DNA from: Methanocella paludicola SANAE | Lineage (GTDB): Archaea > Halobacteriota > Methanocellia > Methanocellales > Methanocellaceae | Assembly (NCBI RefSeq): GCF_000011005.1 | Contig: NC_013665.1 | Coordinates: forward strand, 1,054,001-1,118,000 | DNA length: 64,000 bases | Direction: 5' to 3' | Shown here: piece by piece, positions 16,660 to 30,372 of the stretch | How positions within the stretch are numbered: position 1 is the stretch's first letter | How the letters are laid out: each line of letters starts with the position of its first letter | Program-made: the position numbers and the translations under genes | Notes under the pieces: generated by a model | The model's database searches: none | What the model saw: only the letters and a program-made list of their open reading frames with translations | What the model was told of the DNA's origin: nothing

Positions 16660-16866
16660 TCATTTATGCACATGCTTATGCTTGTGCTTATGCTCATGCT
16701 CATGAGCATGCTCTTCCCCTGCATGCTCGTGCCCATGGGCATGTTGGTGAACGTGCTCATGCTCGTGTTCCCCGGCTTCAGACGGGACATGAGCGTGCTC
16801 ATGCTTTATTAACTCCTCTTCCTCTTTTTTACCGTGCTTATGCTCGTGACCTTTTTCATCATGCAT
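16660..16866 (-). CDS. Small histidine-rich metal-binding protein
   Basis: This 68-residue protein is about one-third histidine, arranged as repeated HEH, HKH and HAH pairs, with Glu and Lys making up most of the rest. It has no signal peptide and no fold-like hydrophobic core. Such peptides bind nickel, zinc or copper. Its position 55 bases after the nikR gene in the same direction suggests nickel buffering or storage. Because of the repetitive DNA, the length is likely to vary between strains. Regulation by the adjacent NikR is an inference. Confidence 0.7.
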   Translation of the reverse strand: MHDEKGHEHKHGKKEEEELIKHEHAHVPSEAGEHEHEHVHQHAHGHEHAGEEHAHEHEHKHKHKHVHK

Positions 16867-16921: not shown

Positions 16922-17353
16922 CTAGAGCTCGGCGCCCGGAGTGATGGTGGTGAGCTTGACGTGCTTCACGCCCTTCAGGGACATCATCTTTTCAGCAAAG
17001 GCCTTGATATCCTTTGCATCGCCCCGGAGCGTCAGGATCTCGAGGCAGTTGTGCTCATCGATATGGACGTGGACCGAGGACTGCGTGAGCTCGCTGTTAT
17101 CGTGCTGTATATCAATGATATTGTTAACCAGGCCGCGCTGGTCGTGGTCGTAGAGGAGCGAAACGATGCCTATCCGGTCGCCCTGGACTTCGCTCATCCA
17201 CTCGTAGTTCAGAATGTAGTTCCGGATCGCGTCCCGGATGCCTTCGGAGCGGGATGAGTAGCCTCTCTTGGTGATGATCTCGTCGAACCTTCCCAGGAGA
17301 TTTTCCGGTAACGATACGCCGATACGCATTAGTTCCTGTTCCATTTGATTCAC
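16922..17353 (-). CDS. nikR: Nickel-responsive regulator NikR
   Basis: The 143-residue protein has an N-terminal ribbon-helix-helix domain ([18 protein letters not shown], then [13 protein letters not shown]). Its C-terminal ACT-like metal domain has the nickel ligands in place: HDN near residue 84 and HVHIDEHNC near 95-103. These correspond to H76, H87, H89 and C95 of E. coli NikR. It should repress nickel uptake when nickel is plentiful. It is divergent from cooC with a 213-base AT-rich spacer holding both promoters, and the His-rich gene follows it. Confidence 0.93.
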
Positions 17354-17566
17354 GCTCTATATATAATATTTAACTTTAAGATAATATTACGTATGACATA
17401 AAATACCTTTTGATTTTTATACGACCTCTGCTATGAAGTATATGTATTCAAATTTCTATCTTTTTTAACTTTAATGTATTACAAATTTAATATATATGAA
17501 GATAAAGTATTAAAATTAGTAAAATATTTATGCTAAAGTAACATTTAAAAAATTTGGAGCTTTTAT

Positions 17567-18313
17567 ATGAAGATCGCAGTTTGTGGAAAGGGCGGATCCG
17601 GCAAGAGCACGATCTCGGCCCTGCTCGCCAGGGCTATGGCAGCCCGTGGTCACAATGTCCTCGTGGTCGACCTCGACGAGTCCAATTACGGGTTGCACAG
17701 GCAGCTTGGGATGGAGGCCCCGGCAGACTTTATCGGCTACTTTGGAGGCAAGGAAGCGGCAACGAAAAAGATCGTCGAGTATTACCAGGACCGGACGAAA
17801 GAGCCGTTCGATATGAAATGGTCCATCGCCACGCTCCCCTCCGGATACGTCGTCGTAAAGTGTGGGATCAGACTCCTGTCCATAGGCAAGATCCACGACT
17901 TCGGCGAAGGCTGTGCCTGCACGATGGGCTCGCTCTCCGAGCTGCTCTTCAAGAATCTGGTGCTAGATGAGAACGATGTCGTCATCGCGGACACCGAGGC
18001 CGGGGTTGAGCACCTGGGCCGCGGCATCGAGGCCGGCTTCGACCACATCATGGTCGTAGTGGACCCCTCCTACGAGTCGCTCCGGCTCTCGCGCAAGATC
18101 GAGGCCATGGTCGGAAATAACGGGGCGAAGGTGCACTTCGTGCTGAATAAGATGGACGAGGAAATACAAAAACTGGTGCTCGGCTGGTTCGAGGGCAAAA
18201 GCGTGGCCGCCGTGATCCCGGAAGATAGGGGATTGTTCCGGGCGACGCTCGAAGGGCGGGAGCTGGATATGGAAATTCCCGCGATCCGGTGTCTGGCCGA
18301 TTCATTATATTGA
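17567..18313 (+). CDS. cooC: CooC-type nickel-insertion ATPase for CO dehydrogenase
   Basis: The 248-residue protein is a MinD/CooC-type P-loop ATPase. It has GKGGSGKS at residues 7-14 and the CooC-specific segment FGEGCACTMGSLSELL near 113, whose CxC cysteines bind metal between the two subunits. IADTEAGVEHLGRG (about 142) is the Walker B/switch region. CooC loads nickel into the CO dehydrogenase C-cluster using ATP. Methanogens of this type use CO dehydrogenase/acetyl-CoA synthase for carbon fixation. The gene is flanked on both sides by NikR-family genes, which strengthens the nickel assignment. The 17354-17566 spacer is very AT-rich and carries its promoter. Confidence 0.9.
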   Translation: MKIAVCGKGGSGKSTISALLARAMAARGHNVLVVDLDESNYGLHRQLGMEAPADFIGYFGGKEAATKKIVEYYQDRTKEPFDMKWSIATLPSGYVVVKCGIRLLSIGKIHDFGEGCACTMGSLSELLFKNLVLDENDVVIADTEAGVEHLGRGIEAGFDHIMVVVDPSYESLRLSRKIEAMVGNNGAKVHFVLNKMDEEIQKLVLGWFEGKSVAAVIPEDRGLFRATLEGRELDMEIPAIRCLADSLY

Positions 18314-18319
18314 TTTTTT

Positions 18320-18739
18320 TTAAATTTCCGCTTCGGGCAGGATAGTCGTGAGCTTGACGTGCTTCACGCACTTGTTCGCCATCAGCTTTTCGGTGAAAGC
18401 CCTTATGCTTCCCCCTTCACCGCGCACGATGATAACGTCCATGCAATTATCTTTATCGAGATATTTGTGGATCGTCGTCAGTATCAGGCCGGAATTGTCA
18501 TGCCGCACCTGCATCAGACTGCTGACAAGCTTACGCTTATCCTGGTTATACAGGATCGAGATGATGCCGATGCGATCCCCCCGGACTTTGCTCATCCATT
18601 TCTCGTACTGTATATAATCCCTTATGGCATCACGAATGCCTTCGGACCTGGAGGAATACCCCCGCTGTGCGATGACTTCGTCGAAACGGCCCATGAGTCG
18701 GCCTGGTACCGATATGCCTATGCGCGCTAGATCCTGCAT
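18320..18739 (-). CDS. NikR paralogue with altered metal ligands
   Basis: The 139-residue protein aligns along its whole length with the NikR at 16922-17353, including the ribbon-helix-helix ([16 protein letters not shown]). In the metal site it reads RHDN and IHKYLDKDNC. The first His and the Cys are kept, but the position of E. coli H89 is Tyr and that of H93 is Asp. It may therefore bind nickel differently, or sense another metal such as cobalt or iron. It is convergent with cooC and 6 bases from it. The gene on its upstream side codes for a tiny peptide, then a metal-complex ABC transporter. Confidence 0.85.
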   Translation of the reverse strand: MQDLARIGISVPGRLMGRFDEVIAQRGYSSRSEGIRDAIRDYIQYEKWMSKVRGDRIGIISILYNQDKRKLVSSLMQVRHDNSGLILTTIHKYLDKDNCMDVIIVRGEGGSIRAFTEKLMANKCVKHVKLTTILPEAEI

Positions 18740-19180
18740 CGTCGGCCTTCCTTTTGTAAAATTTATATCTGCTTTTATCTTTTGGAATAGATTGTCATGC
18801 CGATAAAATATCGGCGCAAGTAGATCCGTCCGATACGAGGTGAATATATATGGGTAATTTTCTGATGCATTTTGATATTTAAGTGGTCATCATTGCTCGA
18901 TCACTTGCGCCGATATTACATTTATCTATTATAGTATTACTTAGTAATATATTTTACTATTTTTCTCATATAAAGCAAATATCTTTTTAAAATATCGGGC
19001 CTATTTTACGCTTAATATTAATTAGGTACTAGTTAAGGTACATTCGAAAAGTATAACAACTCTTGTGCCGAATTCATTTGAATAAGTGTCCTACGTATTA
19101 CGATTAAGATTTTTATTCACAACAGAAAATATATATCCCCTCTCCCTATATGTTTATTTTGAGAAAGGAGGTAACCGCTT
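18740..19180. other. AT-rich intergenic region with promoters and an inverted repeat
   Basis: No gene longer than the tiny one at 19181 is evident. The region carries the promoter for the NikR paralogue on the minus strand and a long AT-rich leader for the tiny reading frame on the plus strand. It also holds a 15-base inverted repeat at 18807-18821 and 18903-18917. An untranslated RNA over the repeat is possible but not shown. Confidence 0.5.
18807..18917. repeat. Separated 15-base perfect inverted repeat
   Basis: AATATCGGCGCAAGT at 18807-18821 is perfectly inverted as ACTTGCGCCGATATT at 18903-18917, with 81 bases between. The GGCGCAAG core is also part of a second separated inverted repeat at 22916-23024. 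The spacing is too wide for a simple terminator. The pair could be ends of a small mobile element, two operator halves, or the base stem of an RNA. Confidence 0.6.
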
Positions 19181-19231
19181 ATGTGCGCCACCTGCGCCAA
19201 GCACAACCCGAAGAAAACTCCCAAGAAGTAA
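19181..19231 (+). CDS. Tiny Cys/Lys-rich peptide with a strong ribosome-binding site
   Basis: An open frame of 16 codons plus stop, MCATCAKHNPKKTPKK, starts 8 bases after a perfect Shine-Dalgarno sequence (AAAGGAGGT at 19164-19172). The peptide has a CxxC with a nearby His, able to bind a metal ion, and a lysine tail. A T-rich run follows the stop. The strength and spacing of the ribosome-binding site argue for real translation. The size is far below usual annotation limits. Function unknown; the metal-transport surroundings hint at a metal-linked role. Confidence 0.45.
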   Translation: MCATCAKHNPKKTPKK

Positions 19232-19256: not shown

Positions 19257-20051
19257 TTATTTTACGTACGGTAGGATAACCTTTTTATTATCGTGCTCGA
19301 TGATCTCGACGTCCACTCCATAGGCTGCCCGGATGTTCTCCGCCGTCATCACATCCCGCGACAGACCCGCGGCGATGACGTTACTTTTGTGCCCGTCCAG
19401 CTTTGCCATGAGGACGACCTCATCCGCGTACATGAGGGCATGGTTGGGGTCGTGCAGGGTCATGATGACGGTCATGCCTTTTTCCCGGGCCAGGCCCGTG
19501 ACCATGGAGAGGACCCCCATCTGGTTTTTCAGGTCCAGGAACGTCGTGGGCTCGTCGAGCAAGAGGAACTCCGGCCCCTGCGCCAGCGCCCGGGCGATCA
19601 TGACGAGCTGGCGCTCGCCGCCGCTGATCGTAGTATAGGACTTTTCGGCCAGGTGAGAAATTCCCAGCGTCTTCAGGATTCCCAGGGATATTTCCATGTC
19701 CTTTGCGGAAGGTGTCGAGAAAGCCCCGATATACGGCGCGCGGCCGGTCATGACCACGTCGAGCACCGAGAACGGGAAGGAGGACCGGTGCGCCTGGGGG
19801 ACGCTGCCCATTTTCTTTGACAGATCCACCGGCCGCATCTCGACGATATTTTTTCCGTCAAGAAATACAATGCCGCTGTCCGGGTCGAGGTTGCGGCTGA
19901 TGATCTTCAGGAGCGTGGTCTTGCCGCACCCGTTCGGCCCCAAAAAAGCCACGACTGATCCCTTTTTTATCGAGACGCCGATACCTTCCAGGACCCGGAG
20001 GTCGTCGTAGGACTTGCCGACGCCTTCGATGCGAATGCCTTCTCCGGTCAT
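19257..20051 (-). CDS. ABC transporter ATPase, FecE/BtuD type
   Basis: The protein of about 264 residues has Walker A GPNGCGKT, the signature TISGGERQLV and Walker B EFLLLDEPTTFLDL, with the H-loop in MTLHDPNHAL. The family powers uptake of iron-siderophore, haem or corrinoid complexes. It overlaps the permease stop by 4 bases (ATGA at 20051-20048), which decides the start; a second ATG 6 bases earlier is possible. It is the last gene of a binding protein-permease-ATPase operon. The substrate cannot be told from the ATPase. Confidence 0.9.
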   Translation of the reverse strand: MTGEGIRIEGVGKSYDDLRVLEGIGVSIKKGSVVAFLGPNGCGKTTLLKIISRNLDPDSGIVFLDGKNIVEMRPVDLSKKMGSVPQAHRSSFPFSVLDVVMTGRAPYIGAFSTPSAKDMEISLGILKTLGISHLAEKSYTTISGGERQLVMIARALAQGPEFLLLDEPTTFLDLKNQMGVLSMVTGLAREKGMTVIMTLHDPNHALMYADEVVLMAKLDGHKSNVIAAGLSRDVMTAENIRAAYGVDVEIIEHDNKKVILPYVK

Positions 20052-21109
20052 TCCCATCCGCCTACCTTCGCCCGGCGCAGGATAAATATAAAGAATGGCG
20101 CGCCGATGAGCGTCGTGAAGATGCTGACCGGGATCTCGAAGCCGAAAGCCGCCCGGGCGGCGTCGTCCACGATGACGAGGAAGGCCGCCCCGAAGGTGAA
20201 CGACAGCGGAATGAGGAGCCGGTGGTCCGGCCCGATCACCATGCGGACCATGTGCGGCACGATAAGGCCGACCAGGGATATGATCCCTGCGATGGCGACA
20301 GAGGCCGACGCCACGAGCGAGGCCGCGACGATGAAGGCCACCTTGTACAATTCCGTATTCATGCCCACGGACCGGGCCTCTTCGTCCCCCAGGGCTAGCA
20401 CATTCAGCCTCCAGCGCAGCAGGATAATCACGGCACACCCGGCCACGATGAGGTACCAGGCCTCGCCGAGCTTCGACCAGGTGGAGGCGTTGAAGCTGCC
20501 CATGATCCAGAGCACGATGCTCTGCAGCGCCTTCTCGTTGGTCTGGATCTGGATGATGCCCAGGAGCGCCGTGAAGACGGCCGAGGTGATGACGCCCGAG
20601 AGCACGAGCGATATCACGGGAGTCTCGCCCTTCGTGCGGGCCATTAGATAAGCCAGCCCGATGGCGATCAGGCTAAAGACGAAGGCGGCGGGCTCCAGCG
20701 GCAGCGCCGGCAAAACAGCGATGGACAGCGCCGCCCCGAACGCCGCTCCGGACGACAGGCCCAGGATGTAAGGATCGACGAGCGGGTTCTTGAAAATGCC
20801 CTGGAACGCGGCGCCCGAGATCGCGAGCGCCCCGCCGACCAGCATGGCCGTCAATATCCGGGGCAGACGCACGTCGAAGATCACGCTATAGTACATGCCC
20901 GGGTAGTCGCCGCCCCCGAAGAGCCGGGAAGCGATGACGCCCAGCGTATCGTTGAAGGAAAGGCCGAAATTGCCGATAAAAAGGGATACGACGAAAGCCG
21001 GCAGCGGCGAAATGAAAAATAAAAAAGCGGCGATGGATTTCCATGCCCAGGGGGTATTAACGGGCAGCTTCGCTGCCGTTAACGCCTCCGCGACACTGTT
21101 TTTTGCCAT
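20048..21109 (-). CDS. ABC transporter permease, FecCD/BtuC type
   Basis: The 353-residue protein has about 9-10 hydrophobic helices and FecCD family words including VRLPRILTAMLVGGALAISGAAFQ split around GIFKNPLVDPYILG. A later GLIVPHMVRMVIGPDHR marks the ATPase-coupling region. It forms the membrane channel of the operon with the lipoprotein at 21122 and the ATPase at 19257. Iron-chelate or corrinoid uptake is the likely role. Confidence 0.92.
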   Translation of the reverse strand: MAKNSVAEALTAAKLPVNTPWAWKSIAAFLFFISPLPAFVVSLFIGNFGLSFNDTLGVIASRLFGGGDYPGMYYSVIFDVRLPRILTAMLVGGALAISGAAFQGIFKNPLVDPYILGLSSGAAFGAALSIAVLPALPLEPAAFVFSLIAIGLAYLMARTKGETPVISLVLSGVITSAVFTALLGIIQIQTNEKALQSIVLWIMGSFNASTWSKLGEAWYLIVAGCAVIILLRWRLNVLALGDEEARSVGMNTELYKVAFIVAASLVASASVAIAGIISLVGLIVPHMVRMVIGPDHRLLIPLSFTFGAAFLVIVDDAARAAFGFEIPVSIFTTLIGAPFFIFILRRAKVGGWE

Positions 21110-21121
21110 CGCCCGTTCACC

Positions 21122-22204
21122 CTAAGCCTTCGCGTAGCCGGGATAATGCACGCCGTAGACCGAGACGAAGAAGGCGTCGTATTCCTTATTCAGGTCCAGC
21201 GAGGCGAATTTGTCCGGGTTGATGTTCTTAGCGATCTTCATCACAACGAGGGGCAGCCTCGAGGTCATGGAGTCGTCCAGGAACGGGTTGTCCAGCTCGT
21301 AGACGCGGCCGTTCTTGACGGCGTTGATGTTCCTCCACGCCTTGTAGTCCTCGCCGGTCATGATGTCCTTCGGGTCGAGGTTCGGGTTGTACCACATGTA
21401 GATGACGTCCGGGTTCAGCGCCTGGATGGCCTCCATGGTCAGCACCGGGTGCTCGTCGTACTTCGTGTCGTTGTTCCACTTGCTGACGACGTTCACGCCG
21501 CCCGCCGCATTGATCATGTCGTTAGTGGAGCTGTGCAGGCCGGCCGTACCGTAGACGTCGCCCCACATCCAGTACACCGTGGGCTTCTCGTTCTCGGGTA
21601 TCGCCGAGGTGACGTCCGTGACCTTCTTCATGGTCGCGTTCATCGTGTCCAGGACCTCCTGGCCGCGCTTCTCGTTGCCGACGATCTTCGCAAAGTCGCG
21701 GTGCTGTTCGTAGATGTCGCTGAAGTTCCTCAGGAAGACGCCGTAGACGGGCACGTGCAGGGTCTCCTCGATGGCCTTCGTGTCCTTGTCGTCCCAGTCC
21801 GCGGACCAGAGCACGACCAGGTCCGGATTCGCCTTCGCCAGCGCCTCCAGGTCTACCGCCCCGTTGACGTAGCCGACCTTCTGGGTCGCATTATAGTTCG
21901 AGTCAACGGCGCGGAAGAAGTCCTCCTTATACTGGGGCATCCAGATGTCGCCGATACCCGAGATATCGTCGGCCCCGCCGACCGCGTACATCGTGTTCAT
22001 CGCGTTCTCGACCAGGAAGACCACACGCTTGGCTGGGTAGGGCACCGTGAGAGTCTTACCCCGGTCGTCGATGACCGTGATGGTCTTCTGGGCCTGCGTC
22101 GTCGGCGTGGCCGTCGCGCCAGTGTTCGTGGTCGTACAGCCCGCCGCAATGATAGAAATGACGACGATGGCAAGTATCGCTACTATCATTAATTTTGATT
22201 TCAT
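21122..22204 (-). CDS. ABC transporter substrate-binding lipoprotein, FecB/BtuF type
   Basis: The 360-residue protein has a lipoprotein signal with the lipobox IIAAGC near residue 23 and a Thr-rich spacer. The TroA/FecB fold follows with typical stretches TVPYPAKRVVFL, VDLEALAKANPDLVV and EAIQALNPDVIYMWY. It captures a metal complex outside the cell for the permease and ATPase that follow it. A GGGAGGTTAAC ribosome-binding site precedes the ATG. The ligand is unknown: iron chelates and corrinoids are usual, and the nickel/cobalt surroundings keep those metals possible. A GTGTTACTTTA sequence lies 69 bases upstream. Confidence 0.92.
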   Translation of the reverse strand: MKSKLMIVAILAIVVISIIAAGCTTTNTGATATPTTQAQKTITVIDDRGKTLTVPYPAKRVVFLVENAMNTMYAVGGADDISGIGDIWMPQYKEDFFRAVDSNYNATQKVGYVNGAVDLEALAKANPDLVVLWSADWDDKDTKAIEETLHVPVYGVFLRNFSDIYEQHRDFAKIVGNEKRGQEVLDTMNATMKKVTDVTSAIPENEKPTVYWMWGDVYGTAGLHSSTNDMINAAGGVNVVSKWNNDTKYDEHPVLTMEAIQALNPDVIYMWYNPNLDPKDIMTGEDYKAWRNINAVKNGRVYELDNPFLDDSMTSRLPLVVMKIAKNINPDKFASLDLNKEYDAFFVSVYGVHYPGYAKA

Positions 22205-22272
22205 GTTAACCTCCCTATTCTTATTAACAATTTTAAATTATGACGATTTTTTTAATATTTTTTTATTGATTT

Positions 22273-22283
22273 GTGTTACTTTA
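22273..22283 (+). promoter_or_regulatory. GTGTTAC-type site upstream of the FecB-like gene
   Basis: GTGTTACTTTA lies 69-79 bases before the start codon at 22204. It resembles the GTGTTACTAAT sequences before other metal genes here, and GTTCACAC at 22300-22307 is a rough inverse partner. The similarity is short, so this is a weak candidate. Confidence 0.25.
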
Positions 22284-22755: not shown

Positions 22756-22915
22756 CTTGACCCTCATCTTGCCAGCTTTTTTAATCTCCGTCGATCTCGG
22801 GTACCGAGATGAGCTTCATCTAATACTCGGATAAATGGTAATATTTATTACAATTATAGTAAATTATATTAACTAGTAACAACATTATAAAATTTTGTAA
22901 TACCATTGGGGCGGG

Positions 22916-23239: not shown

Positions 23240-23380
23240 CTATTTCACCTCCCTGCACCGGCTACTTTCGTGAGTATGATACGCAGGAATTAAAATAAGA
23301 GGCTGCAGCGCAATGCCTGCAGAATCGGATAGTCTTCATGGTCAAGCACAAGCCCTGCTTAATCATACGATAATTAATTT

Positions 23381-23398
23381 TCGTGTTACTAATTGATA
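23381..23398. promoter_or_regulatory. GTGTTACTAAT metal-locus motif (near the tiny peptide gene)
   Basis: TCGTGTTACTAATTGATA matches the sequence before cbiM at 29269-29286 in 17 of 18 bases. The T-rich TATA-containing sequence that follows is also similar. It is in the spacer between the znuA-like gene and the tiny minus-strand gene. Confidence 0.45.
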
Positions 23399-24466: not shown

Positions 24467-24500
24467 ATAAGATACTAAGTGTTAAGAACTATTTAAGTCT

Positions 24501-24510
24501 TATTACTAAT
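24501..24510. promoter_or_regulatory. TATTACTAAT motif before the znuA-like gene
   Basis: TATTACTAAT is identical to the inverse of ATTAGTAATA at 29070-29079 before cbiQ and shares TTACTAAT with the site before cbiM. Its place 35-44 bases before the start codon is the promoter region, where a repressor would act. Confidence 0.35.
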
Positions 24511-25504: not shown

Positions 25505-26233
25505 TCAGCCCACCACGCACGCCCTGCGCACGGCGCCTTCCACGTCGCCGGAATTGCACACCATGTCGGCCGATATCCTGCCCTCGCTCATGATCACCAG
25601 GCGCACCTTCACGTCCGGGAGCCCGTCGAACGCGTGCGATACCATGACGACCGGCGTGCCCTTCTTCACGATGTCCTTCAGGACGCCCTGGAAATACTCG
25701 CGGGCCCGGAAGTCCAGGTTGCTGAAAGGCTCGTCCAGCAGCATGATATCCGGTTCCTTGGCGATGTTGTGGGCGATCATCGCTTTCTGCTGCTGGCCAC
25801 CGCTCAGTGTGCCGATCGGCTTGCTAACGAGGTCTTCAATGCCGGCCATCCGGATCGCCTTATCCGCGGCACGATGGTCGGCTTCAGACGGCCTGTTAAA
25901 AAAGCCCAGGCGTCCGTAGCGGCCCATCATCACGACCTGCCCGACTGTGAAGGGCGTGAACGGGTCGAAGTAGAAGTTCTGGATCACGTAGCCTACCTTT
26001 TTTCTCACGTCATTGCCAGAGCGACGCACGTCCAGCCCGCACACCATGGCATAGCCGTGCGTGATCCGGACCAGCCCGTTGATGGACTCGAGGAGCGTCG
26101 TCTTGCCGGCGCCGTTGGGGCCGCCGATGACGACGAACTCGCCCTGCCCGACGCTCAGCGAAAGGTCCTTGATGACGGGCTTATCGCCGCCCTCATAGGC
26201 CGTGTAGATGCCCTTCAGCTCGATGACGCTCAA
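25505..26233 (-). CDS. znuC: Metal ABC transporter ATPase, ZnuC-like
   Basis: The 242-residue protein has Walker A GPNGAGKT, signature LSGGQQQKAM and Walker B DIMLLDEPFSNLDF. It supplies ATP energy for the permease at 24674. The start is TTG at 26233, supported by GAGGGACGGGG just upstream and by the N-terminus SVIELKGIYTAYEGG. Longer readings run through the preceding gene and are not needed. It follows the FmdE-domain gene by 11 bases. Confidence 0.88.
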   Translation of the reverse strand: MSVIELKGIYTAYEGGDKPVIKDLSLSVGQGEFVVIGGPNGAGKTTLLESINGLVRITHGYAMVCGLDVRRSGNDVRKKVGYVIQNFYFDPFTPFTVGQVVMMGRYGRLGFFNRPSEADHRAADKAIRMAGIEDLVSKPIGTLSGGQQQKAMIAHNIAKEPDIMLLDEPFSNLDFRAREYFQGVLKDIVKKGTPVVMVSHAFDGLPDVKVRLVIMSEGRISADMVCNSGDVEGAVRRACVVG

Positions 26234-26244
26234 ATCCCCGTCCC

Positions 26245-26685
26245 TCAATTCGAGCTTACCGTAAAGAGCTCCGTATCGTCCATGCGGTACATGTCCGCGG
26301 CCAGGTCCTCGATCAGTTCGTTGTAATGGTGATCGTCCCGGGGCGGGAACTTGATGGACTTCAGCCTCATGACAAGCTTTTTCCCGTCGCTCTTGAACTC
26401 GCACCTGATCTCGTCGCTCACGACGATCTCGATGTTCCTCTTGCCCAGCGTGCAGCCGCTGCCGATCTGGACGCCGTCCGCCAGGCACGACTGCGGGGGC
26501 TTGCCCGCGCAGTAGACGACGGCGCTCATCTTGAACGGGTCGTTGCAGAAATAGCGCCTTACGTATTTGCCCATCCGGTAGCCGAGAACGATGTAGGGGC
26601 CCAGGTGGCCGTGGAACGCCGCCAGGTCCTCGATCGAATAGTCCTTTTCCAGGCCTGTATATACACATCCTCCGGTATCATGCAT
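26245..26685 (-). CDS. FmdE-domain protein in the metal transport operon
   Basis: The 146-residue protein has the FmdE hallmark HGHLGPYIVLGYRMG near residue 25 and a cysteine-rich centre, AGKPPQSCLADGV followed by SGCTLGKRNIEI. FmdE-type domains were first noted beside formylmethanofuran dehydrogenase and bind metal through His and Cys residues. No other fmd/fwd gene is near. It heads an operon with ZnuC and ZnuB, so a metal-handling or sensing role is more likely than a dehydrogenase role. A GTGTTATTAAT motif lies 35-45 bases upstream. Confidence 0.8.
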   Translation of the reverse strand: MHDTGGCVYTGLEKDYSIEDLAAFHGHLGPYIVLGYRMGKYVRRYFCNDPFKMSAVVYCAGKPPQSCLADGVQIGSGCTLGKRNIEIVVSDEIRCEFKSDGKKLVMRLKSIKFPPRDDHHYNELIEDLAADMYRMDDTELFTVSSN

Positions 26686-26730: not shown

Positions 26731-26775
26731 ATGAAATAATAACTTTTTTATCTTTGATGCTACTAACTCCATATC

Positions 26776-27246: not shown

Positions 27247-28077
27247 TCAGCGGATATGCTCGTGCGTATGCTCCTTATCATGTGAGTGCAGGTGCTGGTG
27301 TTCCAGGTTCCCGTGGCGGTGCATGTGCCGGTGGATCAGGTTATGCTGCTTGAGTAATTCGAGGTCGGCCATCACCTTGTGAGAGTCGGTATCCACCTTG
27401 AGCATGTGGTCCTCGCCGAACACGACTGCCCGGGTGCTGATCTGCTCGATGATATCGAGATCGTGGGTGGCGGTGACGATGGTCTTGCCCGCATGGGCCA
27501 GCTCCTGTAGGAGCTCGATGAGCCAGAGCTGGCTCCTCGGGTCCAGGCCCGCCGTGGGCTCGTCTAGGAGAAGCACATCCGGATTAACGGAAAGCACAGA
27601 CGCCAGGCACACTTTCTTCTTCTCGCCGCCGCTGATAGTGTGCGGCGAGCGGTCCCGGAGGCCCGTAATGCCGACCATGGCCAGGACGTCCTCCGTGCGC
27701 TTCTTGACTTCCTCCTTCGACAGGTCCAGCTGCAGGGGGCCGAAGGCCACTTCGTCGTAGACGGTCGAGCAGAACAGCTGTACGTCGGGGTTCTGGAACA
27801 CGAAGCCCACCTTTTTCCGGAAATAGCGGCACTGCTCGTTGTCCTCCAGGGAGTCGAAGACCTCCTCCGTGACGGGGCTGCCGAAAGCGTAGAACTCGCC
27901 CTCCGTCGGATAGGCGAGGGCATTCAGGATCGAGAGCAGCGTGGACTTGCCACTCCCGTTGGCGCCCATGATGGCCACGTGCTCGCCCGCGTCAATCCTC
28001 AGGGTGACGTCCTTGAGCGCCGGGAACTTCCCGAGATAGGTGTACGATACGTTGCGTAAGTCGAATACCGTTTGCAT
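27247..28077 (-). CDS. cbiO: Nickel/cobalt ECF transporter ATPase, CbiO/NikO, with His-rich tail
   Basis: The 276-residue protein has Walker A GANGSGKS, signature ISGGEKKKV and Walker B DVLLLDEPTAGLD, typical of CbiO. The last 30 residues are His-rich (HRHMHRHGN, then EHQHLHSHDKEHTHEH), a tail likely to bind Ni or Co at the cytoplasmic side. The ATG at 28077 is chosen because the fold starts at VFDLRNVSYTY. It follows cbiQ by 8 bases. The partners cbiM and its small subunit are divergent at 29329. Nickel is the likely substrate given the NikR and CooC neighbours. Confidence 0.92.
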   Translation of the reverse strand: MQTVFDLRNVSYTYLGKFPALKDVTLRIDAGEHVAIMGANGSGKSTLLSILNALAYPTEGEFYAFGSPVTEEVFDSLEDNEQCRYFRKKVGFVFQNPDVQLFCSTVYDEVAFGPLQLDLSKEEVKKRTEDVLAMVGITGLRDRSPHTISGGEKKKVCLASVLSVNPDVLLLDEPTAGLDPRSQLWLIELLQELAHAGKTIVTATHDLDIIEQISTRAVVFGEDHMLKVDTDSHKVMADLELLKQHNLIHRHMHRHGNLEHQHLHSHDKEHTHEHIR

Positions 28078-28085
28078 GATAAGAC

Positions 28086-29024
28086 CTAAATCCTTATGAT
28101 CTGGTGGGAGTAGAGGATCAGCAATACGCTGAAACCGACGACGGTGACGATCGCCACGTAGTCCCGGGGCTTCATGGCAAAGTCCTCCAGGAGCTTCACG
28201 TCGCCATTGAAGCCTCGCGACACCATGGCGCCGTGGACCTTTTCCGCCATGTCGAGCGACTTGACCAGCGTATAGCCGATGCGGCCGCCCACCCACTTTT
28301 GCTCTTCCAGTAGCGGCAGGTTCTTTATCGTCCGGCTCTTCTTCGCCGTGTAAAAGGACTTGACTATGTCCGTCAGCAGGAAGATGTACCGGTAGCACAT
28401 GTCGAGCGTCAGCACGTAGACCCTGGGCGTGCCGACCGACCTCAGCGACTTGAAGAGCTTATCCCGGGGCGTCGTCAGGAAGAGCAGGACGGCGGCCGAC
28501 ACGCAGGTGGCCACCCGCAGCGTGAACGAGATGGCGCCCATCGTCCCCTGCCTCGTGATCGCGATGGTCTCGGGCAGCGCAAAAGGCCCGAGCCTGGCTC
28601 CCGGCCCCAGCGTGACGAGGGTGAACAGGCTGTCTCCCGGGAAGAAGACGTTGAAGATCATGGGCAGGGCGATGATACCCGTGAAGATCGGTATGAACAG
28701 CCAGACGCGCTTGATAAAGAACCAGACCCCGATCCGGCTCGCGGCGGCGAACACGAGCGTCAGCGCGTAGACGAGAAGCATCAGCCGCCAGTCCGTGACC
28801 ATGGTCACCGCCACGATCAGGGTGACGATCGAGATCAGCTTGACCCGCGGGTCCAGGCTCTGCAAAAGCCCGCTCTTCCGGGCATAGCCCTCGGAGGCGA
28901 TGGTCTCCTCGAGGAAATTAAAGATACCGCTCAGCGTCTTGCCGACGAAATTTTTTTTACCTGCCGAGACCGAGCAACAGGGGCTGGGACCGACGTTGAC
29001 CTCTTTCATCCATTCGGGTATCAT
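28086..29024 (-). CDS. cbiQ: Nickel/cobalt ECF transporter membrane protein, CbiQ/NikQ
   Basis: The 312-residue protein has a longer-than-usual hydrophilic N-terminus of about 60 residues, including SPCCSVS. About five membrane helices follow and the family motif MAEKVHGAMVSRGFNG, which couples to the ATPase. It is the transmembrane T-component for CbiO and CbiM. The first residues vary in this family, so the start may lie later. TTAGTAATAT lies about 50 bases upstream. Confidence 0.9.
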   Translation of the reverse strand: MIPEWMKEVNVGPSPCCSVSAGKKNFVGKTLSGIFNFLEETIASEGYARKSGLLQSLDPRVKLISIVTLIVAVTMVTDWRLMLLVYALTLVFAAASRIGVWFFIKRVWLFIPIFTGIIALPMIFNVFFPGDSLFTLVTLGPGARLGPFALPETIAITRQGTMGAISFTLRVATCVSAAVLLFLTTPRDKLFKSLRSVGTPRVYVLTLDMCYRYIFLLTDIVKSFYTAKKSRTIKNLPLLEEQKWVGGRIGYTLVKSLDMAEKVHGAMVSRGFNGDVKLLEDFAMKPRDYVAIVTVVGFSVLLILYSHQIIRI

Positions 29025-29069
29025 GACAAAACCTGGGGGTATGGCGTAACCAGTAATAATTATCTTCTC

Positions 29070-29079
29070 ATTAGTAATA
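29070..29079. promoter_or_regulatory. ATTAGTAATA motif before cbiQ
   Basis: ATTAGTAATA is the inverse of TATTACTAAT found before the znuA-like gene. It is 46-55 bases before the cbiQ start at 29024, in the promoter region. It forms one side of the AT-rich 304-base divergent spacer 29025-29328, which contains no gene. Confidence 0.35.
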
Positions 29080-29268
29080 TGAAGATGTTAAAAAATCTTT
29101 TGATATTATCTCCGGGTCTTTAGATCTTATTGAACATTAAATATATGACCATTTCATACTATCGATATTTAAAAAATGATTACTAAGGTTAAATTTTTAA
29201 TTTTCCGTATCTTGGTAAGTTAAAATTACGTGAGAAATATTCATATATATTTTAATTTTTGATACGTA

Positions 29269-29286
29269 TCGTGTTACTAATCGATA
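29269..29286. promoter_or_regulatory. GTGTTACTAAT motif before cbiM
   Basis: TCGTGTTACTAATCGATA lies 43-60 bases before the cbiM ATG. It is followed by TTTTTTATAA, a TATA-like box, placing the transcript start close to the ATG. It matches 23381-23398 in 17 of 18 bases. It is the best candidate in this window for a metal-responsive operator; NikR is the obvious candidate protein. Confidence 0.5.
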
Positions 29287-29328
29287 GTTTTTTATAACTA
29301 CAAGCCCTTCTGCATATCTGGTGATATT

Positions 29329-30039
29329 ATGCATATCCCTGATGGATATCTAGGTCCAATAACATATATAGCACTGTTCATAATAATGGTCCCGATCTGG
29401 CTATATGCGGGATACAGGGTAAGGAAAGACCTGAGGTCTAAGCAGGTACCGCTGCTGGCATTATCGGCGGCTTTTACGTTCGTTATCATGATGTTCAACG
29501 TCCCGATCCCGGGCGGCAGCACCGGGCACGCCGTCGGCGGCGCCATCATCGGCATCATCCTGGGCCCCTGGGCCGCCATCGTGTCGATCTCGGTCGCGCT
29601 CATCATCCAGGCCTTCGTCTTCGGCGACGGCGGCATCACGGCCATCGGGGCGAACTGCTTCAACATGGGTGTCGTCATGCCCATCGTGGGCTACTATACC
29701 TATAAGCTGATAAGCGGTAACTCGGATATTAAGTCCGTCCGCAGGATCGCAGCGGCGGTCATCGCGGGCTACCTATCGCTCGTGATCGCCTCCGGCTTCG
29801 CGGGCTTCGAGTTCGGCATACAGCCTTACTTATATCCGGCAGTGAACGGCCAGTTCCCGTACATGCCGTACGACCTGAGCGTGACCCTGCCGGCGATGCT
29901 CGGCGAGCACATCCTGTTCTTCGGCGTGCTCGAAGCGCTCATAACCGGCCTCGTCTTCGTTTACTTCCAGCGTAACACGCCCGAGCTGCTCGAAAATAAA
30001 AAATCAAAAAAAGCTATGCTGGATAAAGTTCCTGTGTGA
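29329..30039 (+). CDS. cbiM: Nickel/cobalt ECF transporter substrate-specificity protein, CbiM/NikM
   Basis: The 236-residue protein begins MHIPDGYLGP, the conserved N-terminus whose amino group and His2 bind the metal ion in CbiM/NikM. About seven hydrophobic helices follow, with the loop GGSTGHAVGGAIIG holding a further His. It selects Ni or Co for the CbiQO engine encoded on the other strand. It precedes the small subunit gene by 9 bases. Confidence 0.93.
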   Translation: MHIPDGYLGPITYIALFIIMVPIWLYAGYRVRKDLRSKQVPLLALSAAFTFVIMMFNVPIPGGSTGHAVGGAIIGIILGPWAAIVSISVALIIQAFVFGDGGITAIGANCFNMGVVMPIVGYYTYKLISGNSDIKSVRRIAAAVIAGYLSLVIASGFAGFEFGIQPYLYPAVNGQFPYMPYDLSVTLPAMLGEHILFFGVLEALITGLVFVYFQRNTPELLENKKSKKAMLDKVPV

Positions 30040-30048
30040 GGTGGCAAA

Positions 30049-30372
30049 ATGGACAATTCGACTAAAATTATCATCGCCGCGCTCATCGTGCTCGTGATCT
30101 TCACCCCTCTCGGGCTGCTGGCGGTAGGCGAGACGTTCGGAGAATGGGGCTTAGAATACTTTGAAGAAAAGCTTGGCTATGTACCGCCGGGCCTCGAAAG
30201 CCTGTCCTCGATTTGGGGCGCGCCATTGCCCGACTATGGGATCCCGGGCCTTGGCGATACGACGGTGGGAGCAGCGGCAGGATACATCGCGTCGGCCATC
30301 ATCGGAAGTGTCGTCAGCGTGGGACTGATCTACGGGCTGGGCAAGATCCTGGTTAAAGATAACTCCAGTTAG
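30049..30372 (+). CDS. Small PDGLE/CbiN-like subunit of the nickel/cobalt transporter
   Basis: The 107-residue protein has two membrane helices (about 5-26 and 76-100). They flank an external loop GETFGEWGLEYFEEKLGYVP continuing to DYGIPGLGDTT, as in PDGLE/CbiN-type accessory subunits. In the family this subunit supports metal capture by CbiM. A GAGGTGGC ribosome-binding site precedes the ATG. A close paralogue is encoded on the opposite strand at 30431-30757. Confidence 0.85.
   Translation: MDNSTKIIIAALIVLVIFTPLGLLAVGETFGEWGLEYFEEKLGYVPPGLESLSSIWGAPLPDYGIPGLGDTTVGAAAGYIASAIIGSVVSVGLIYGLGKILVKDNSS

Follow-up and report, generated by a model that had tools for sequence, protein, structure and literature searches.

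A NikR-family paralogue that has lost a nickel ligand, beside a canonical NikR in the nickel locus of Methanocella paludicola

Methanogens need much nickel, and one end of a nickel locus in Methanocella paludicola SANAE (genome of 2,957,635 bp in a single contig) carries two genes of the nickel regulator family NikR. What does the second do beside the first? We analysed a window of 64,000 nucleotides (NC_013665.1, positions 1,054,001 to 1,118,000; coordinates below are those of the window), in which the locus spans 16.6-30 kb. The gene we call NikR-B (16922-17353, minus strand, likely start the ATG at 17344) is canonical, with all four nickel ligands (H/H/H/C), and a CooC-type ATPase gene (17567-18313, plus strand) separates it from a paralogue of 139 residues (18320-18739, minus strand). 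An earlier note on this DNA had described paralogous NikR genes on either side of cooC whose metal sites differ, a description that holds, and had suggested that the pair senses two metals or two nickel ranges.

The paralogue is an intact open reading frame in which Pfam RHH_1 and NikR_C both score above cut-off (E=1.7e-25), and it aligns end to end with NikR-B, as the earlier note had it, at an identity of 57% overall and 51% in the metal domain. It shares the ribbon-helix-helix and NikR_C architecture of the canonical NikRs of E. coli (1q5v/2hzv), P. horikoshii (2bj1-2bj9) and H. pylori (2ca9/6mrj). The DNA-reading residues R6, G8 and S10 are those of NikR-B and of canonical archaeal NikRs, the low-affinity-site pair E33 and D37 (equivalent to Glu30/Asp34) is unchanged, and among residues invariant in canonical NikRs the paralogue keeps 26/30 in the DNA-binding domain and 11/14 in the metal domain. 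Structure prediction gives a NikR fold (mean pLDDT 72, with a weak N-terminus): as a whole chain the model matches P. horikoshii NikR (structure match, E about 1e-14), and its C-terminal domain superposes on the Ni-bound E. coli domain 1q5y at 1.1 Å over 83 columns (TM 0.95 by target). Relative to NikR-B dN is 0.32 and dS a saturated 2.4, giving a dN/dS of about 0.13. The fold, the DNA-reading residues and this low ratio argue against a pseudogene.

About half of the metal domain is changed from canonical NikR. The planar Ni(II) site of NikR is formed by His87, His89 and Cys95 of one subunit together with His76 of the adjacent subunit (PMC7055735), and we mapped these positions onto the paralogue by alignment to solved NikRs. 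The equivalents of E. coli H76, H87 and C95 are kept, as H80, H91 and C99, while that of H89 is Tyr93 (codon TAT, 18461-18463, minus strand). The metal-site segment does read IHKYLDKDNC, and the H89Y change reported from it is a real loss of a first-shell ligand. The second change in the same report, of the H93D type, does not stand as a metal-site change, since Asp is the common residue there, both in E. coli NikR (Asp93, in HVHINHDDC) and in the canonical NikRs of other Methanocella (HVHLDHDNC); it is the His of the neighbouring NikR-B that is the odd one. A better candidate for a telling second change had been overlooked: the near-invariant His equivalent to E. coli H62 and H. pylori H74 is Gln66 in the paralogue. 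The H. pylori H74A mutant (3pht) lacks the same His, but is an engineered protein with its high-affinity ligands intact. As three of the four ligands remain in the paralogue, its site may still take up some nickel or a different metal, with Tyr or water as fourth ligand.

By domains, predicted fold and DNA-binding features the protein is a NikR-family paralogue: it has the RHH and NikR_C (ACT-like) domains, the DNA-reading strand, the low-affinity Glu/Asp pair and a place in a nickel regulon, and lacks the complete four-ligand high-affinity set. Judged from its sequence, we file it as a NikR paralogue and not as a nickel-responsive NikR, because nickel-dependent DNA binding by the homotetramer is a protein-level property. 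The NCBIfam models for nickel-responsive regulators match it all the same, a warning that such annotation labels proteins 'nickel-responsive' despite missing ligands.

The surrounding genes suggest which DNA the pair would act on. From the regions upstream of NikRs near nikMNQO-type genes in three related genomes, which have AGTAATA-N16-TATTACT in common, we derived an operator pattern AGTAAYA-N16-TRTTACT (14-letter consensus). Its layout resembles the reversed-orientation NikR signal of a delta-proteobacterium, GTAACAC-N13/14-GTGTTAC (PMC545781), although the spacer there is N13/14; a forward-orientation operator, GTATTAC-N-GTAATAC, was dropped, as no spacing stood out for it. With up to 2 mismatches allowed, the pattern has 5 intergenic matches in the locus against 0.13 expected from dinucleotide shuffles (0/300 shuffles reach 5), and other spacers from 4 to 29 give at most 2 matches in the intergenic DNA of the locus. 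Only this clustering and the spacing stand out: across the genome the 33 matches, 5 of them in one 4.5-kb part of the locus, do not exceed the 54 of a reversed control.

Candidate operators matching the pattern (coordinates without strand) lie at 22251-22280, upstream of a FecB-type binding protein gene; at 22875-22904 and 23361-23390; at 24478-24507, just upstream of a ZnuA-like gene; and at 26735-26764, upstream of an open reading frame (26245-26685) and an ABC ATPase gene (25505-26668). A further candidate ahead of NikR-B (17362-17391; core GTAATA-N16-TATTAT on the minus strand) has 3 mismatches to the consensus. At the promoter of the paralogue itself no strong operator is found directly; a weak candidate about 175-200 bp upstream (18912-18941, 3 mismatches) is unconvincing alone. 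Among the genes that the cluster would serve are those of two importers, one of FecB/FecCD type and one of ZnuABC type, and the nikMNQO-type genes, transporters whose metals we infer. The first, comprising an ATPase, a FecCD permease and a Peripla_BP_2 binding protein (19257-22204, minus strand), is a candidate for nickel uptake by its neighbourhood and operator. The NikMNQO-type genes (27247-30372) are an ATPase (27247-28398, minus), CbiQ (28086-29024, minus), CbiM (29329-30039, plus) and a small NikN-like open reading frame (30049-30372, plus); the idea that nikMNQO is absent from the genome was thus wrong, as nikM is in the window. Having the same DNA-reading residues and the same operator neighbourhood, the two NikRs would probably bind identical or similar operators.

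Several smaller features accompany these genes. A perfect 15-bp inverted repeat (AATATCGGCGCAAGT / ACTTGCGCCGATATT; arms 18807-18821 and 18903-18917, 81 bp between them) lies in the 5' region of the paralogue, and its exact arm has no other copy in the genome. At 19181-19231 (plus strand) a 16-residue open reading frame, MCATCAKHNPKKTPKK, with a strong Shine-Dalgarno sequence, is possibly a conserved CxxC microprotein; near-copies, each with its own Shine-Dalgarno, occur in Methanocella sp. PtaU1.Bin125 at C61:43916 (MCATCAKHNPKKPK) and C76:36834 (MCDTCAKHNPKKRPKA), and the other 293 Halobacteriota genomes scanned gave no match. The CooC-type ATPase has the P-loop GKGGSGKS and a CxC at residues 116-118, and its best PDB match is CooC, 3kje (E=1e-19). 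It sits in a genome with no CO dehydrogenase, which it is unlikely to serve here: the sole Prismane-family gene is a hydroxylamine reductase, and CODH/ACS is absent according to the M. paludicola genome paper (PMC3146512). In the same orientation as NikR-B, a His-rich, nickel-storage-like peptide of 68 residues is encoded at 16660-16866 (minus strand), and a similar gene lies beside the NikR-B of Bin125. Elsewhere in the genome, at C1:1441121 (C1:1441066-1441264), a dead third NikR retains only its first 48 residues, with stops, and is still preceded by the genome's only exact GTAAYA-N16-TRTTAC site.

The earlier note had proposed looking for the same pair in related genomes, and among three other genomes of the order we found a comparable one. 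Two of the three have a single canonical NikR adjoining nikMNQO-type genes. In the third, Methanocella sp. PtaU1.Bin125, a canonical NikR likewise adjoins such genes, and there is in addition a pair in which a canonical NikR is accompanied by a converging copy (L035:6755-7180) with K, Q, N and I in place of the four ligands. The neighbours of this pair are a NikABC-like transporter and genes for a CooC-type protein and a His-rich peptide; in scans of genome contigs this contig was the only match. Like the paralogue, the degenerate copy of Bin125 has a conserved DNA-binding domain and stands beside a canonical NikR and beside genes of the CooC and His-rich types, but it is only 50% identical to the paralogue and, with none of the four ligands, is unable to sense nickel at the high-affinity site. 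Bin125 therefore has a pair of the same kind, while the sequences do not establish its common descent with the window pair: the two degenerate copies group in trees with support of 70/15 or 97/36, long branches being involved, the two CooC proteins share 31% identity, and duplication within the genome, with NikR-B, is not rejected (p-AU 0.20). Strict orthology of the two copies is accordingly no more than a possibility.

Loss of ligands proves to be widespread when 89 full-length NikRs from Halobacteriota genomes are compared. All ligands are present in 68, and 1-4 are lost in 21, from 20 genomes; 21/89 is not a frequency in nature, because the sample was deliberately enriched for multi-copy genomes. 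An intact NikR coexists with every one of the 21 (20/20 genomes). The R/G/S reading residues are kept in 20/21 of the degenerate copies, and the H62-equivalent His is absent from 18/21, as from the paralogue. Of the residues invariant in canonical NikRs, the degenerate copies retain 90% within the DNA-binding domain, 72% within the metal domain and 49% among the ligands, the last figure being partly so by construction because the group is defined by ligand loss. Our reading of these sequences is that the degenerate copies would maintain DNA binding while nickel binding is relaxed. In most copies the losses are scattered and yield no consistent new set. H89Y as the sole ligand loss has at least two origins, the paralogue and a family-level group: the HHYC copies of G119, G162 and G226 (L065, L048, L064) likewise keep the remaining three ligands, and their genomes carry a canonical NikR at another place, but unlike the paralogue they nest, at 100/99 support, with a canonical NikR from the family to which they belong. 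In one genus a canonical NikR has a fully ligand-less NikR nearby, within about 0.5 kb in two genomes (L042, L043; G261, G290) and about 3 kb away in a third (L041; G182). In G005/G221 the degenerate copies adjoin 2-oxoacid:ferredoxin oxidoreductase-like genes, not nickel genes.

These patterns bear on how the pair may work. The main rival to the role we propose below is a genuine second sensor: with His80', His91 and Cys99 and with Tyr93 or water, the paralogue would bind nickel more weakly, or another metal in non-planar geometry, and would respond over a different range. ZnuA-type as well as FecB-type transporters in the neighbourhood would suit such a protein, as would the separate origin of the HHYC set in another family, where each copy again keeps the other three ligands; so too would the survival of three ligands in the paralogue, which at 51% identity of the metal domain is however not significant alone. 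The H62-equivalent is lost as well, most degenerate copies elsewhere show no consistent new set, and the copy that stands beside its NikR in Bin125 has no ligand left, so that we think a second sensor unlikely. The sensing of two metals or two nickel ranges, possible in itself, is accordingly unsupported for the pair: a single ligand differs here, the Bin125 copy is without all four, and ligand-losing copies recur beside intact NikR.

Fainter still is the prospect of an independent regulator, no longer tied to nickel control and with an operator of its own such as the 15-bp inverted repeat. The uniqueness of that perfect repeat upstream of the paralogue and the non-nickel neighbours of the G005/G221 copies would agree with it, but DNA-reading residues identical to those of NikR-B, and a position inside the nickel locus, with cooC on one side and a candidate nickel importer on the other, make it improbable. 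That the gene is a duplicate in decay, an early pseudogene, or does just what NikR-B does, is the poorest of the explanations: a GC3 a little below that of its neighbours (0.66 against 0.71-0.89) and a clearly dead third NikR in the same genome hint at decay, and are outweighed by the intact, constrained reading frame, the canonical invariants that it keeps and the persistence of a comparable copy in another Methanocella.

Loss or weakening of the nickel response with DNA binding retained fits the pattern better than a second sensor does. We propose, with confidence that stands about evenly balanced, that the paralogue is a DNA-binding subunit of the NikR family whose ability to sense nickel is impaired, and that it tunes the canonical NikR by assembling or competing with it. 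The high-affinity square-planar site would be broken by H89Y and the loss of the H62-equivalent, while fold and DNA-reading strand are kept; the protein would act on the same N16-spaced operators as NikR-B, either mixing into NikR-B tetramers or competing for operators with little response to nickel. Joining NikR-B tetramers is a plausible route because each nickel site needs residues from two subunits. The outcome would be a tuned repression of the nickel locus, and no second metal would be sensed.

The NikR family itself is well known, and ligand-losing copies beside an intact NikR appear to be undescribed: we found no account of them in the literature on NikR His89, H74, heterotetramers and methanogen NikR, most subscription papers lying outside that search. 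Their occurrence beside intact NikR in many methanogens suggests a recurrent tuning of nickel genes. We advance only tentatively, as a conjecture more likely wrong than right, that methanogens repeatedly evolve 'nickel-blind' NikR subunits which co-assemble with intact NikR and reset the number of nickel ions needed per tetramer to repress. As two subunits contribute to each NikR site, a ligand-less subunit could change both site number and cooperativity in a mixed tetramer. If this were true, ligand-dead paralogues acting as dominant modulators would represent a general mode of metalloregulation, and if ligand-losing copies do recur, methanogens would be a natural test bed for the tuning of metalloregulators.
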